This document shows positions 16,989 through 22,943 of a DNA stretch of 64,000 bases, in pieces. The notes under the pieces are model-generated. The model was not told the DNA's origin, searched no databases, and saw only the letters and a program-made list of their open reading frames with translations. Position 1 is the first letter of the stretch. Each line of letters starts with the position of its first letter. The DNA is taken from the NCBI GenBank assembly GCA_018268315.1, contig JAFDWU010000002.1:124001-188000 (forward strand). The letters are read 5' to 3'. Origin of the DNA: Armatimonadota bacterium (GTDB lineage: Bacteria; Armatimonadota; Fimbriimonadia; Fimbriimonadales; Fimbriimonadaceae). Made by a program: the position numbers and the translations under genes.

Positions 16989-17755
16989 ACCGGAATAGCC
17001 TCAGACGTTGGCAGCGGCTTACGCGCAGCTCGCACGAAGATCACCGCGCCGATCAGCACGAAGATGCCGGCGGCAACCTGAGCATCGGTGATGGGCAGAC
17101 CGCCAATGGTGGTTGAACTGGACCCAATCCGGAAGAATTCGTAGAAAATACGGCTGGCGCCGTGAAGCATGAAGAACATGCCCGCGCTCTGCCCAACCTT
17201 TCTCGGCGCTTTCTCAAATAGGAACAGCAACCCGAGCATTCCGAGATTCACCAGGGAATCGTATAGCTGGGCCGGGTGGCGGGCGAATGCCTCATGGTTG
17301 AATTCCACGCCCCAAGGCAAGGTAGTTGGACCGCCATAGCAACACCCATTCATCAGGCACCCAACGCGCCCAATTACATGCCCAATTAGCATCGGCGCCG
17401 CCATCAAATCCATCAAGCCAAGAATCGACTGCCGCCTTCGAACGCACCAGTAGATCAGCCATATTGCCCCTCCGATGATGCCCCCAAAACTCGTGAGGCC
17501 CCTCATCTGCAACGTGTAGATTTCGCTCGGATGAGCCTGGAAGTAGGGCCATTCTTGAATCATGAAAAGGATGCGCGCACCGAGGATGCCGCAAATGATA
17601 AGCCCGAAAGATACGTTGTCGATTTGATCTGGCGTAAAGCCGAACTTCGCCGCCCGCTTTCGCGCCAAGGCGAGGCCCACGATGAAGGCGACCATGAGGA
17701 TTACGCCGTAGGTGGGAATCTCAAACGTGCCGATTTTGAAAAGTGTTGGATGCAT
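16985..17755 (-). CDS. lgt: Prolipoprotein diacylglyceryl transferase
   Basis: The 256-residue inner-membrane enzyme has about seven membrane spans and the Lgt signature GRVGCLMNGCCYGG beginning at Arg130, followed by HPAQLYDS. It transfers diacylglycerol from phosphatidylglycerol to the lipobox cysteine of prolipoproteins, such as the one encoded at 53672. It is the first gene of a short lgt-hldA unit (ATGA overlap), which ties lipoprotein and LPS synthesis together. It starts at ATG 17755 and is divergent from the flavin oxidase gene. Confidence 0.95.
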   Translation of the reverse strand: MHPTLFKIGTFEIPTYGVILMVAFIVGLALARKRAAKFGFTPDQIDNVSFGLIICGILGARILFMIQEWPYFQAHPSEIYTLQMRGLTSFGGIIGGAIWLIYWCVRRRQSILGLMDLMAAPMLIGHVIGRVGCLMNGCCYGGPTTLPWGVEFNHEAFARHPAQLYDSLVNLGMLGLLFLFEKAPRKVGQSAGMFFMLHGASRIFYEFFRIGSSSTTIGGLPITDAQVAAGIFVLIGAVIFVRAARKPLPTSEAIPV

Positions 17756-17868
17756 TGCGGCTGCGGGCCAGTTTACCGACTGACAACAGTCATGACGGCG
17801 CCGGAATAACGAACGTTACGCACATCGGGAATACTGGGACTCGTGGTGGAACTGCACGGAGTCTGGCG

Positions 17869-18849
17869 TTGAAGGTTGCCGTAATCGGCGCGGGGGTTTC
17901 TGGACTTGCCGCAGCAAGAACACTTCACCAAGGCGGCGCAGAGGTCGTTGTATTTGAAAAGTCCGGCAAGGTTGGCGGACGCGTTGCCACTCGTAAGGTC
18001 GGAGATTTTGTATTCGATACCGGCGCAAGCAGTATCGTTCCCCGCGGCCTAGCTCTGCAATCCGTGCTGCTTAATGAACTTCCTCAGGACGAACTGCACC
18101 TAATCCAGAAGCCAATCTATATCTTCGAAAACCACCATATCTCAGTAGGCGATCACGCTCGCAACTCGCAGCCGCGGTACACCTATATCAACGGCAACGC
18201 GACTCTTCCTAATTTACTCGTTGATGGCCTAGATATCCGGCTCAATACAAGCGTCGAGACCATCGAAAAGGCGGATGACGGCTTTGCCGTCCTTGATACG
18301 AAATTTGATCGCGTAGTCACCGCCACCCCCATCCCGCAAGCCGCCCCGCTACTTTGGGGAATTGGGGAAACAAGGCCGTTCGCCAACTCAAGCTTCCGCT
18401 CCTGCCTCAGCATTCTGCTTGGCTTCACCAAAGAATTTGAGCAGATGCCACCTTTCCATGCGCTTCTCGATCCGGAGGGCCGAAACCCGCTTGGCTGGCT
18501 TTCGATCGAAAGCGTGAAGAGTCCAAATCGAGCGCCGAACGGCTGCACGGCCATCGTCGCCCAACTCAACGCCCCGTTTAGCAAAACGCACTTTGAGGAC
18601 GCCGACGATAAGATCGTCGAATGGACCCTTGACTCGATGGCGAGAGTCATCGGCCCCGGCTGGGCGGAGCCGACCGTTAAAGAGGTTAAGCGCTGGAAGT
18701 ACAGTCAGCCTGAAGGTCTAGCCTCCTTTGAGTCGGTGAATAAGCCCGGCTCGAAGGTGGTTATCGCTGGCGATGGCCTGCTCGGCGGGCGCGTCGAGCA
18801 GGCCTACCAGTCGGGGCTGAGAGCCGCGCAGATCCTCCTCGTTGGCTGA
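17869..18849 (+). CDS. Renalase-like FAD-dependent amine oxidase
   Basis: The 326-residue flavoprotein begins at the nucleotide-binding fold, VAVIGAGVSGLAAA, followed by the FAD-ribose glutamate in VFEKSGKVGGRVATRK. The C-terminal flavin motif is VIAGDGLLGGRVEQAYQSG. This arrangement fits the renalase/NAD(P)-binding amine oxidase family, which includes enzymes that re-oxidise mis-reduced nicotinamide dinucleotides. I start at TTG 17869 with GGAG 8 nt upstream; a longer frame back to 17743 adds unconserved sequence and overlaps lgt. The stop TGA directly abuts the stop of the convergent esterase gene. Confidence 0.8.
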   Translation: MKVAVIGAGVSGLAAARTLHQGGAEVVVFEKSGKVGGRVATRKVGDFVFDTGASSIVPRGLALQSVLLNELPQDELHLIQKPIYIFENHHISVGDHARNSQPRYTYINGNATLPNLLVDGLDIRLNTSVETIEKADDGFAVLDTKFDRVVTATPIPQAAPLLWGIGETRPFANSSFRSCLSILLGFTKEFEQMPPFHALLDPEGRNPLGWLSIESVKSPNRAPNGCTAIVAQLNAPFSKTHFEDADDKIVEWTLDSMARVIGPGWAEPTVKEVKRWKYSQPEGLASFESVNKPGSKVVIAGDGLLGGRVEQAYQSGLRAAQILLVG

Positions 18850-20367
18850 TCAGCCAGAAACCCGGACGAATTCGAGTGAGCGATTTCGTTGCATACCTGG
18901 CATCTCCATGTACACCCCTTTGAAATCCCACTTACCGACGAGCTTGCCCCCATTCAGCCGAACTCCATGCGCGATCACGCCGCGCGGATGCATTCCATTC
19001 ATGAATCCGAACTCGATACCATCTGAAGTCATACGCATGAAAACGAGGTCTTGAACCAGCTTTTCGCCGTTTGGCATCGTTGTAATCATCTGACCTTGGC
19101 CGATTCCATTCACAGTCTTCAGCGTGACCGTGGTTTCCGCCTCTGACCCAGGTTCATCGGGCGCCTTAATCTCCTTCCAAACGCCGAGATATGGACGCAT
19201 CTGCTCTTCGGTGGGATGGGGAGAGGCCAGCAGCTGGGCAACGGACTCCTTGCCCTTCATCATTTGCTCCGCCTTGTCGATATCTTGTTCCAGCTTCGCC
19301 CGATCCTCAGGCTCTCCGTATCCTTCGGTCATCATCGCCAATGCGCGGCGGGCAGCTGGGCCATTCCCGGTGTAACTGAGTTCAAACATCGCCCTATCGA
19401 GAAGACTCTTGGGCGGCATCGGAAACGCGCCGTACTCCTTGGCAAGGTTCTCGTAGTAAGCAAAGACATCAGGGCCCGGCAACTGCTTCGTCTTTGCGGC
19501 AGAGTAATCGCCAAACACCATCTTCAGGCCATTGTAAGCGCCGTCGAAATACATCATTTCATGGTCTTCATCGGGCAGCTTGGCCCGAATCAGCTTCCAA
19601 TTCTTCGGCGCTTTGGCGGTGAAATTCGCCCAATCCTTGTCCGTCCAACCGAATCTCACTTCGAGAGACACCAGCCGCAAGTTTCCTCCAGCCGGGATCG
19701 AGTTTGCTAAGCGGCGTTCCGGCCAACGGTCCTGCAAATGCGCTGGAGCATCGAGCGACACGATGAAGGGGAAATCTTTGCGCCAATCTGCGGCGGCGTA
19801 GTGGCAAAGGAGGCCGCCATGAGAGTGGCCAATCAGCACACAAGGAGCGCCGCCCCTAAATCTCGCCGCAATTTCAGGCTTAAGCTCTTTCGCGAGAAAG
19901 GTTAGGAACTTCTCGGCGCGGGCATCGCCGTCCGAATTCTGATTCCCCATCAGCTTGGGGGTCATGTCGTTACGCCGCTCGGGGGTCTCAACGGCGACTA
20001 CGATGCACTCCGGTATATGCCCAACCGCTGCCAGTTTGCGCTGGGCGGTCACCGTCGCCTCGTAGTAATACTCGCCGTCCCCCAAGAAGATAATTGGATA
20101 CTTCCGAGTATTCGTATTGAAGGAAGCCGGGAGGTATACGTGAATCACACGATCCTGACCGAGCGCCTGCGAAAACATCTTGCCCGAATAGCTCGTGCCC
20201 CACGATTTCGGGAAATCATCTTGCTGCGGATGCAATGTCAGGCTGCCCGACTGAGCCTTTGCAACTGCCACCGGCGAAGCGGAAGCCCTACTACATCGCG
20301 CGGCAGTGACCACCATAGCTACCCCGGCTAAGACACAAAACAGACGAAATTGAAGACCCTTGATCAT
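18850..20367 (-). CDS. Exported esterase of the Esterase D/Fes family with C-terminal extension
   Basis: Of 505 residues, the first 30 or so form a signal peptide. The alpha/beta-hydrolase domain (about 70-290) has strand YPIIFLGDGEYYY and nucleophile Ser182 in GHSHGG; His in EDHEMMYFDG is a candidate catalytic base. About 200 residues follow that I do not recognise: a helical segment (300-390) and a beta-rich end (GVWKEIKAP onwards) resembling a lipocalin/DUF-type barrel. The family hydrolyses esters such as siderophore or carbohydrate esters. Substrate is unknown. A signal sequence places it in the periplasm. It is monocistronic. Confidence 0.75.
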   Translation of the reverse strand: MIKGLQFRLFCVLAGVAMVVTAARCSRASASPVAVAKAQSGSLTLHPQQDDFPKSWGTSYSGKMFSQALGQDRVIHVYLPASFNTNTRKYPIIFLGDGEYYYEATVTAQRKLAAVGHIPECIVVAVETPERRNDMTPKLMGNQNSDGDARAEKFLTFLAKELKPEIAARFRGGAPCVLIGHSHGGLLCHYAAADWRKDFPFIVSLDAPAHLQDRWPERRLANSIPAGGNLRLVSLEVRFGWTDKDWANFTAKAPKNWKLIRAKLPDEDHEMMYFDGAYNGLKMVFGDYSAAKTKQLPGPDVFAYYENLAKEYGAFPMPPKSLLDRAMFELSYTGNGPAARRALAMMTEGYGEPEDRAKLEQDIDKAEQMMKGKESVAQLLASPHPTEEQMRPYLGVWKEIKAPDEPGSEAETTVTLKTVNGIGQGQMITTMPNGEKLVQDLVFMRMTSDGIEFGFMNGMHPRGVIAHGVRLNGGKLVGKWDFKGVYMEMPGMQRNRSLEFVRVSG

Positions 20368-20489
20368 TGTTCTACGAAAACCCTCGTAGTTCCGACGCGC
20401 CGTTGTTGGCGCTAGGTTCTGTAATTTTCAAAAAATCTCATGTATTCGGAAAGCATCAGGCGTGCCGTATGTGATTTGCCAATCAGCGA

Positions 20490-20495
20490 TAGAAT
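20490..20495 (+). promoter_or_regulatory. -10 element TAGAAT before the unknown gene upstream of the dapB-like gene
   Basis: TAGAAT is 7 nt before ATG 20503 and no ribosome site intervenes. This favours 20503 over the earlier in-frame ATG 20440 as the start. Confidence 0.55.
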
Positions 20496-20502
20496 TGGCT
20501 TA

Positions 20503-21099
20503 ATGATTCTTGCGCCTCCGGAAATCTCGCATACGGCTAACTACCTTTGGACCGAAGGCGGCAAGCCCGCCGGTCGCATGTCGATCTTGCTAAAAGTTTC
20601 GCCAACCTCGGTAAGCCAAGAGCTCCTTATCACGGCGGGCAAGAATGAACTGCGCCAGTTCTCGATGCGAACTCGTAAGGGTGAGCTTGTGCGCGTGGTT
20701 GTCGATCAAAAACTGGGCGCGACTCACAAAGAGATCGTTGTAACCTTTGAAAACAAGGCCGCTCAGGTCGTCACGCTTGAAGGCGGTGGGCGGAAAGTCA
20801 CAAAAGTGGAATGCTCGGGGACGCCGGGCGATCCATCGAGCGTTTGGTTTCTTACAACCCGGCCGAAGCCGGGAACAACGGTGAGCTACTGGGATTTTTC
20901 GACAGCATCGAACACTTGGAGTATTGGGAAGTCATATTTTCAAGGGGTAGCCAAAGCGAAACTTTATGGCAAAGATGTTTCGGCTTTTCTTGTCGTGAAC
21001 AAGAAGGATGGGGTGAAGAGTGAAACCTACCTGGATAGCAACGGAATGCCCTTGCTCATTGTCCGAAACCAAACACGTATTGAGAGAGAAAAGACATGA
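20503..21099 (+). CDS. Unknown protein, 198 residues, coupled to the DapB-like gene
   Basis: The sequence starts MILAPPEISHTANYLW. It is beta-rich with no Cys pair, membrane span or clear signal peptide. Alternating hydrophobic strands and a Gly-rich turn (LEGGGRK) in the middle, plus a second half that reads like the first half of a barrel, suggest a LolA-like or lipocalin-like fold, but I cannot assign it. The stop overlaps the next start as ATGA, so it is co-translated with the DapB-like protein. If the frame starts at 20440 instead, 21 residues are added. Confidence 0.6.
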   Translation: MILAPPEISHTANYLWTEGGKPAGRMSILLKVSPTSVSQELLITAGKNELRQFSMRTRKGELVRVVVDQKLGATHKEIVVTFENKAAQVVTLEGGGRKVTKVECSGTPGDPSSVWFLTTRPKPGTTVSYWDFSTASNTWSIGKSYFQGVAKAKLYGKDVSAFLVVNKKDGVKSETYLDSNGMPLLIVRNQTRIEREKT

Positions 21100-21935
21100 T
21101 CACAGCAGTTCCTGATGTGCCTGTGCGCATCACCGTAGTCGGCGCAGCCGGAAAGTTTGGGCGAGAGATAATGCGGCGTCTGAAGCCGGTTGAAGGCGTC
21201 GAAATCGTCGCCGCTATCGACCTATTTGGAGCCGGAGAGCGGTGCCGAGACGTCATCAGCCACCGCGCGCCCGATCTCGTAATCGAGGACAAGACAGGCG
21301 CCAGCCTGGATCGCCTGCGCCCGGATGTCCTTGTCGATGTCTCAAACCATGGCGCGGCAGCCCAGCACGCCCTTTCCGCAATCAAGCGCGGAATTCCGTT
21401 CGTCATCGGCGCAAGCGGCCTCTCATCTGACGACTTACAGGAGATTGAATTCAAGTCTCGTGAAGCGAAGGTGCCTGGCATCTACTGCCCGGTGCTGTCC
21501 ATCGGCGCAGTGTTGATGATCCGCTTTTCGGAAATGACCGCGCGCTACTTGCCGCAGGTCGAAATCATTGAAATGCAAAGCACCCAGGAGAAAATGCCCA
21601 CCGGCCTTCTCTCGCAGCAGACGGCGGAGATGATCGCAAAGGGTCGGCGCGAAGGCAAGCATGCGGTGAACGATTCCGAGACTGCGGGCAAGTGCGAGCA
21701 GCATTGCGGCGTGAAGATTCACGCCGTCCGATTGCAGGGCCTTCACGCACATCAGCGTGTGCTGTTTAGCGGCCGCGGGGAAACCTTTGTGCTTCAGCAC
21801 GACTCACTGGACTACACGTCGTACCTGGATGGACTTCGGCTGGCGATCTTTAACGTGGCGAGCTTGGATAGCTTTGTCGTCGGACTGGAGAACCTCATGT
21901 TTGAAGAGGGTCGCCGAACGACGGTCGGCGTGTAG
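21096..21935 (+). CDS. DapB-like dihydrodipicolinate reductase lacking the catalytic motif
   Basis: The 279 residues align along their length with 4-hydroxy-tetrahydrodipicolinate reductase: Rossmann start VVGAAGKFGRE (15-25), GASG (105-108) at the nicotinamide loop, LSIGAVLMIRFSE, and the C-terminal IHAVRLQGLHAHQRVLF plus GETFVLQHDS. At the active site the family has E-L-H-H-x-x-K-x-D-x-P-S-G; here, at residues 159-171, the same spacing reads EMQSTQEKMPTGL. Both histidines, the lysine and the PSGT loop are gone. It therefore is unlikely to make tetrahydrodipicolinate and may bind NAD(P)H for another reaction. It follows an unknown gene in one unit. Confidence 0.75.
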   Translation: MITAVPDVPVRITVVGAAGKFGREIMRRLKPVEGVEIVAAIDLFGAGERCRDVISHRAPDLVIEDKTGASLDRLRPDVLVDVSNHGAAAQHALSAIKRGIPFVIGASGLSSDDLQEIEFKSREAKVPGIYCPVLSIGAVLMIRFSEMTARYLPQVEIIEMQSTQEKMPTGLLSQQTAEMIAKGRREGKHAVNDSETAGKCEQHCGVKIHAVRLQGLHAHQRVLFSGRGETFVLQHDSLDYTSYLDGLRLAIFNVASLDSFVVGLENLMFEEGRRTTVGV

Positions 21936-21965: not shown

Positions 21966-22943
21966 ATGATTACTGCACTGATTGCTCTGCTGTCTCAGGG
22001 ATTGAATGCCCCTCCAGAAGGAGCAGTATTAGTCAAAGGTGCTTCAGAACTCTTGATTCACCAACGGGGATCGGCGGTAAGGAAGCTTCCTATGAAGGGA
22101 ATTCGCGGCGCTTCTGCGACGGACCAATTTGTTTGGGCATGGAACCTAGAAATGCTCACCATATGCTCCGTCAAGTCGAAACGACAGTGGCAATTAGAGC
22201 AAAGGGGGATCACCGGATGCGCTTATATGGGGCGTGATTCCTTCGTCGTTCAGTTGAAATCCGATGACACCGACAGACCTTCCGTCTTCCTGTTAGAGTT
22301 ACCTCCAGGTAAAGAGCCCCTCACCTTATTGCCACTCTTCGATGAGGGAGGCATTAAGTTTCACAACAATTACGGATTCTTACCGGTGACAGCGTTTGCT
22401 GTTGATGTCACAAATCACCGATTCTTCGCGGGCGTCGGGCCAGACCTGTGGGGATCTGGCGAGCCAAATGAATGGTTCAGTGGGCCAAGTAGTGCGGTGG
22501 ATGTACCGCTCGCAGCAAGAGATCCCTGGTGGGACCTTGCTCGCATACTCCCCCTTGGCTTAATGCGGACCAGACAGTACGAAAACTGGGAGCCCAGTGA
22601 GGTGAAGGAACTTCACTCAAACCAAGCGACGGGGCAACTTGCTGGTTGGGTCGGCAGCGCTAACAGTGGTAGCTGGGAAACGGGATTTGTGATTGACTTT
22701 GTCCAACGTGAGCCGAAGAAACGCGAGATCATTGGAAGGGCTATGCGTTGGTCGCCCACGGGTAAATACCTTGCTGTCGACGAAACTCGACGCGGTATGC
22801 CAGGTAGCCATATCGTGAAACTTCTTGACGGCAAGACCTTGAGAAAAGTTATGGGTTATGAAGGCAGTCTAATCGGATGGATTCCTTCTCGCGACATACC
22901 CCAGCTGGAATCAATAATCAATCACTGGGATTTTCCATTCTGA
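21966..22943 (+). CDS. Unknown, possibly exported beta-rich protein
   Basis: I do not recognise this 325-residue protein. It starts with a short hydrophobic stretch (MITALIALLSQG) that could be a weak signal peptide. Repeated Trp/Gly strands (WSPTGKYLAVDE, LVGWIPS-like) suggest a beta-propeller, and the segment near 255-275 resembles a WD40-like or TolB blade. Codon use is visibly AT-richer than in the neighbours (many TTA, GTA, AGA and ACA codons), a possible sign of recent acquisition or low expression. It lies 30 nt after the dapB-like gene and 61 nt before uvrB. Confidence 0.6.
   Translation: MITALIALLSQGLNAPPEGAVLVKGASELLIHQRGSAVRKLPMKGIRGASATDQFVWAWNLEMLTICSVKSKRQWQLEQRGITGCAYMGRDSFVVQLKSDDTDRPSVFLLELPPGKEPLTLLPLFDEGGIKFHNNYGFLPVTAFAVDVTNHRFFAGVGPDLWGSGEPNEWFSGPSSAVDVPLAARDPWWDLARILPLGLMRTRQYENWEPSEVKELHSNQATGQLAGWVGSANSGSWETGFVIDFVQREPKKREIIGRAMRWSPTGKYLAVDETRRGMPGSHIVKLLDGKTLRKVMGYEGSLIGWIPSRDIPQLESIINHWDFPF

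Follow-up and report, generated by a model that had tools for sequence, protein, structure and literature searches.

The window analysed here is a stretch of 64,000 nucleotides from one contig of an Armatimonadota bacterium of the Fimbriimonadaceae, and it contains a gene, P0001, whose product is a full-length homologue of DapB (Table 1). The NCBIfam equivalog model dapB (TIGR00036) matches P0001 with 140.2 bits against a cut-off of 122, aligning residues 10-268 to positions 2-269 of the 270 in the profile, and the Pfam domains DapB_N (64.6 bits) and DapB_C (53.5 bits) both exceed their Pfam cut-offs. The closest solved structures by sequence are the Paenisporosarcina DHDP reductases (PaDHDPR, 5z2e, E = 6.3e-39), and the top full-length matches among the best 80 of 579 loci in named genomes belong to Armatimonadetes bacterium (L180) and Chthonomonas sp. 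(L248). The GxxGxxG dinucleotide motif, as defined in the report on PaDHDPR (PMC5962572), is present in P0001 with all three of its glycines (G16, G19, G22), as are the C-terminal AHQxVxF strand, the HDS motif and G263-L264. AlphaFold2, given an alignment of P0001 with 39 DapBs, an input of ordinary DapBs that biases the model toward the DapB fold, returned a mean pLDDT of 90.5 and a pTM of 0.87, and the best Foldseek matches of the model in the PDB are DapBs (5z2d, E = 8.1e-26, TM 0.79). With moderate confidence, P0001 is predicted to bind an NAD(P) cofactor.

Table 1. Genes and features at the P0001 locus (positions counted from the first letter of the window)
Feature	Position	Strand	Remarks
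Flavin amine-oxidase-like protein	17743..18849	+	Also a conserved dapB neighbour among relatives
ORF between the amine oxidase and ORF 20440	18850-20367	-	Interrupts the old cassette
Gene ahead of P0001 (ORF 20440), start uncertain	20440..21099	+	Overlaps P0001 (ATGA); ancestrally next to dapB in this family
P0001, DapB homologue lacking the catalytic loop residues of DapB	21096..21935	+	ORF of 279 aa
GAAGKFG, retained GxxGxxG dinucleotide-binding motif	21141..21161	+	P0001 residues 16-22
PVLS where the family has PNFA	21489..21500	+	P0001 residues 132-135; V133 = PaDHDPR Asn126, P132 (Pro125) retained
Exchanged catalytic loop EMQSTQEKMPTGLLSQQTAE	21570..21629	+	P0001 residues 159-178; EMHHDRKEDAPSGTAMLTAE in the two nearest relatives
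Tyr in place of the Arg equivalent to PaDHDPR Arg236	21813..21815	+	P0001 residue 240
Orphan ORF before uvrB	21966..22943	+	30 bases downstream of P0001; codon usage unlike the reference genes

The gene ahead of P0001 matched no family above the cut-off, though homologues of it exist, and in relatives such as L095 its homologue and the amine oxidase are adjacent; the ORF that separates them in the window we take to be esterase-like. A search of 85 genomes of the family for homologues of the orphan ORF downstream of P0001 returned that ORF itself and a weak, stop-containing match in G114, and scans for promoters and terminators gave nothing beyond chance expectation.

The catalytic loop of P0001 reads EMQSTQEKMPTGL and aligns without gaps to the loop of its two nearest relatives, EMHHDRKEDAPSGTAMLTAE, the family form being E-M/L-HHxxKxDAPSGTA. 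The places of HHxxK are occupied by Q161, S162 and E165 and those of PSGT by TGLL (residues 169-172), and V133 and Y240 stand where Asn126 and Arg236 of PaDHDPR would be expected. According to the report on PaDHDPR (PMC5962572), the substrate analogue is contacted by His155, Lys158 and Thr165, and by Arg236 via water; Asn126 bonds Thr165 and Asp160 contacts Thr100; Pro125 offers a main-chain contact to the analogue and Thr100 touches both cofactor and analogue; and a K158A mutant is inactive. In the alignment, counted by hand, S162 of P0001 corresponds to His155, E165 to Lys158, L172 to Thr165, Y240 to Arg236 and V133 to Asn126, and the counterpart of Asp160 is also among the changed sites. 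Not all contacts are lost: P132 corresponds to the retained Pro125, and the position of Thr100 (likewise counted by hand) holds S107, which is also the most frequent residue of the family at that position.

At sites at least 90% conserved in 52 relatives, the partial L016 and the short-class L032 being excluded, P0001 is changed at 24 of 62, and leaving out each of the same 52 relatives in turn gave a maximum of 8 changed sites (L088) and a median of 1. Given 24 changes among 62 sites, the probability that the five active-site residues (counterparts of Asn126, His155, Lys158, Thr165 and Arg236) are all changed is p = 0.0066, which is a soft number because the five were chosen post hoc and the loop may have been altered in a single event. 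The original prediction had described a DapB homologue that keeps its fold and NAD(P) motif and has lost the catalytic His, Lys and PSGT; the gap-free fit of the loop and the two domain matches bear out the homology, the confidently predicted fold and the intact GxxGxxG bear out what was said to be kept, and the loss is present in the sequence and even broader than claimed. These exchanges argue strongly that P0001 would lack DHDP reductase activity.

An alignment to DapB-like ORFs had been proposed as a check, and it set P0001 apart: among 55 distinct ORFs retrieved by phmmer with P0001 from 92 loci, P0001 is the sole one without Lys and PSG, and the other 54 have both. One of these 54 (L029, in G009) has HN for HH in an otherwise canonical motif. 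In the scan of named genomes, H[HN]xxK..PSGT was found in 80/80 loci, which is no unbiased count because the loci were retrieved with C-terminal patterns not matched by P0001, and the best 80 of 579 were kept. A survey for recurrence within the phylum covered 18 of the 19 genomes with more than one match (G038 omitted) and 23 DapB_C places, at which 20 loci were newly read; 19 of these 20 carry a motif-bearing ORF, the frame being split or masked in L265, L275, L280 and L281. At L276, in a genome that is 67% complete (G278), a DapB ORF retains HH and has the KxDxPSGT stretch removed by an in-frame deletion, possibly through an assembly fault.

DapB_C (PF05173) has two places in the genome to which the window belongs (G000; 2.8 Mb, 100% complete), both on contig C2, and TIGR00036 finds the same two. 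The search for another canonical dapB, also proposed as a check, thus ended in a second gene, P0002 (L001, 1177-1923; 248 aa from a TTG start), which shares DapB_N and DapB_C with P0001 but differs from it in its length, in an intact active-site motif, EHHHRKKADAPSGTA, and in a TIGR00036 score of 116.1 bits, below the cut-off of 122. P0002 also stands apart in the tree of DapB classes, where the short class (P0002, G010, G016 and three genomes from a different family of the same order) is separated from the long class by a long branch with full support (100/100), the end branch of P0002 itself (2.54) being flagged as long. Overlapping dapA and dapD genes (292.8 bits against a cut-off of 206, and PRK11830 with 290.6 bits against a cut-off of 204) lie about 7 kb from P0002 on the same contig as P0001, and dapF is located elsewhere in the genome. 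With dapA, dapD, dapF and P0002 found, the genome appears to have the diaminopimelate route, whose second step can come from P0002; this protein likely took over the reductase step on the lineage of P0001.

The descent of P0001 was traced in a tree of 53 long DapBs (246 columns, residues 159-175 removed), in which P0001 groups with the DapBs of G019 and G012 (97/87); its end branch is 1.11, and theirs are 0.37 and 0.29. In a tree of UvrB, encoded in the same window, G000 stands beside G019 (91/95) with end branches of 0.39 and 0.31; the resolution of this tree is poor (4 of 23 inner branches starred), and G012 falls apart from G000 in it. By this single yardstick gene (1.11/0.37 versus 0.39/0.31), P0001 has evolved at about 2.4 times the rate suggested by UvrB. 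A single DapB_C match was obtained in each of G019 and G012, a count that is not certain to reflect a single DapB because these genomes are 92% and 89% complete, respectively. Among 17 loci with a long dapB, 10 have a homologue of ORF 20440 immediately upstream of dapB and 9 have the amine oxidase nearby. Tree and gene order together indicate that P0001 is the ancestral dapB of the family, still at its original position, and it can be said firmly that the old dapB is accompanied in the same genome by a second, motif-bearing DapB.

The family also includes 18 genomes without a long DapB, and from 12 of them the amine-oxidase region was taken. The amine oxidase is present in 12/12 of these loci, a homologue of ORF 20440 in 10/12, and a long DapB in 0/12, one of the loci (L168) ending at a contig end; thus, the old dapB can disappear and the neighbour gene is independent of it. 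The ATGA overlap of the start of P0001 with the stop of ORF 20440 is in the sequence as originally described, but ORF 20440 does not point to a new partnership: its position next to dapB is ancestral in the family (10/17), and it persists in 10/12 loci that have no long dapB, so that it gives no hint of the function of P0001. When 13 genomes of the family were searched for the genes of the route, eight (G020, G136, G022, G135, G143, G144, G154, G155) had no dapB match, and the same eight had dapA-family matches only under the dapA cut-off; dapF was above its cut-off in 13/13.

The explanation that we consider probable, if by no means assured, is that P0001 is an ancestral dapB that was displaced by P0002 and kept as an NAD(P)(H)-binding protein of the DapB fold with a rebuilt pocket. 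The vertically inherited dapB of the family would have stayed in its original place while a short-class DapB, P0002, assumed the reductase step on this lineage. P0001, so released, would then have lost what serves to bind and activate the dicarboxylate substrate (His pair, catalytic Lys, PSGT loop and Arg) and would have been retained as a protein, as its fold, dinucleotide motif and codon usage suggest. The resulting protein would bind NAD(P)(H) in the DapB fold beside a rebuilt, less positive pocket, and might either act on a different substrate or, without catalysis, sense NAD(P) or provide a scaffold. Since P0002 with its intact active site can do the old job, P0001 looks like a protein kept for another role. 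Long-class DapBs (TIGR00036; PaDHDPR, 5z2d/5z2e) are like P0001 in their match by curated score, predicted fold, GxxGxxG, C-terminal motifs and gene place, and unlike it at HHxxK, PSGT and the counterparts of Asn126 and Arg236, all of which are exchanged in P0001. The stronger statement, that a displaced essential cell-wall enzyme was converted in place to an NAD(P)-binding protein of new function, its pocket for an anionic substrate becoming neutral or acidic, is one on which we are evenly divided. Counting against the favoured explanation is that selection after the motif loss is not measurable because no congener copy was found: 54 pattern matches in 84,980 species genomes, a collection that may omit the bacterium's own genome or a very near one, included 0 relatives by tblastn. 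If the stronger statement is true, P0001 would be a bacterial DapB pseudoenzyme or a new oxidoreductase whose replacement shares its genome and whose canonical sisters occur in neighbouring genera. Ancestral enzyme, replacement and canonical sisters are all available, which makes this a clean natural experiment in which the release of an essential enzyme, and perhaps its reuse, can be tested step by step.

One form of the favoured explanation, tentative at best, is that the DapB fold of P0001 acts as a non-catalytic scaffold or regulator in the manner of CRR1. CRR1, a dihydrodipicolinate reductase-like protein of plants, is reportedly needed outside lysine synthesis and is said to be a possible scaffold or regulator for the chloroplast NAD(P)H dehydrogenase; both proteins are DapB-like, and they are likened here by description. 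P0001 fits such a role in that it retains AHQxVxF, HDS, GL and GxxGxxG with the catalytic loop gone, but it comes without an identified partner, and P0002 is unlikely to be its partner in a mixed tetramer because long branches part the long and short classes (100/100). A search of a limited collection of papers found no report on DapB paralogues and their catalytic residues, on a DapB pseudoenzyme or on neofunctionalization of DHDP reductase, nor any on diaminopimelate in Fimbriimonas.

Somewhat less probable is that P0001 is a young relic which, after its displacement by P0002, came under weak or no selection and is being lost, a stop codon or frameshift being yet to come. The faster evolution relative to UvrB points in this direction, and a long end branch such as that of P0001 (1.11) would also be expected under relaxed selection; so does the loss of the long dapB from relatives, with 0/12 amine-oxidase loci (L168 among them, ending at a contig end) holding one. 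P0001 nevertheless has no stop or frameshift, and its lone gap relative to the two nearest relatives is in frame and 3 residues long. Its codon score is 0.335 per codon and is positive in 7/7 segments. The eight genes that define the score have values of 0.18 to 0.50, seven further genes of the window 0.13 to 0.36, and the two neighbours of P0001 0.07 and -0.24; with such scores among genes, a low score is not proof of decay, and a high score favours upkeep. Neutral decay was simulated from a consensus-restored start until 24 of the 62 sites were lost, a point reached after about 190-210 substitutions; each of 12 settings was run 400 times, and the chances of frameshift rest on assumed indel rates. 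None of the simulated decays (0/4,800) retained the codon score of P0001, and the chance of finding no stop ranged from 0.005 to 0.15 by setting (0.006 to 0.126 in a separate calculation), so that the absence of stops, with a chance as high as 0.15, is weak evidence alone and is in part compatible with a relic. Neutral decay of P0001 was rejected on codon usage, which stands against it in all 12 settings; stops alone were not decisive.

The distribution of changes along P0001 is also uneven. At the 62 conserved sites, the identity of P0001 to its three nearest relatives is 0.60-0.61 and that among the three is 0.95-0.98; at 199 other sites, the respective values are 0.39-0.43 and 0.48-0.54. 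The excess change in P0001 is thus greatest at the sites conserved in DapB, a comparison in which the sites were picked as conserved in the relatives and high identity among the relatives is favoured there. Of the original claim that the losses reflect a new function and not random mutation, the second half stands to the extent that neutral simulation does not yield the changes, and a new function of P0001 is itself inferred only, with moderate confidence.

Two other accounts of the exchanged loop have very little to recommend them. A pair of compensating frameshifts could have swapped the loop in one event, and an off-frame reading, HPGENAHRPSLAA, does beat the real frame by 27.7 bits on the family profile, but this gain was equalled by 74/300 synonymous recodings and 53/300 random loops, which leaves the double frameshift unsupported and most improbable. 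It is more improbable still that P0001 remains a DHDP reductase whose loop has shifted, so that K166 and P168-T169-G170 replace the Lys and PSG from one position off the canonical places, when the two His have been lost together with Arg and Asn, the flanks align gap-free and a motif-intact DapB exists.

The scores of the two genes on the dapB model are inverted with respect to their active sites: TIGR00036 accepts P0001 (140 versus 122 bits) and rejects P0002 (116) by six bits, a practical trap in which automatic annotation would put the name dapB on the wrong gene.
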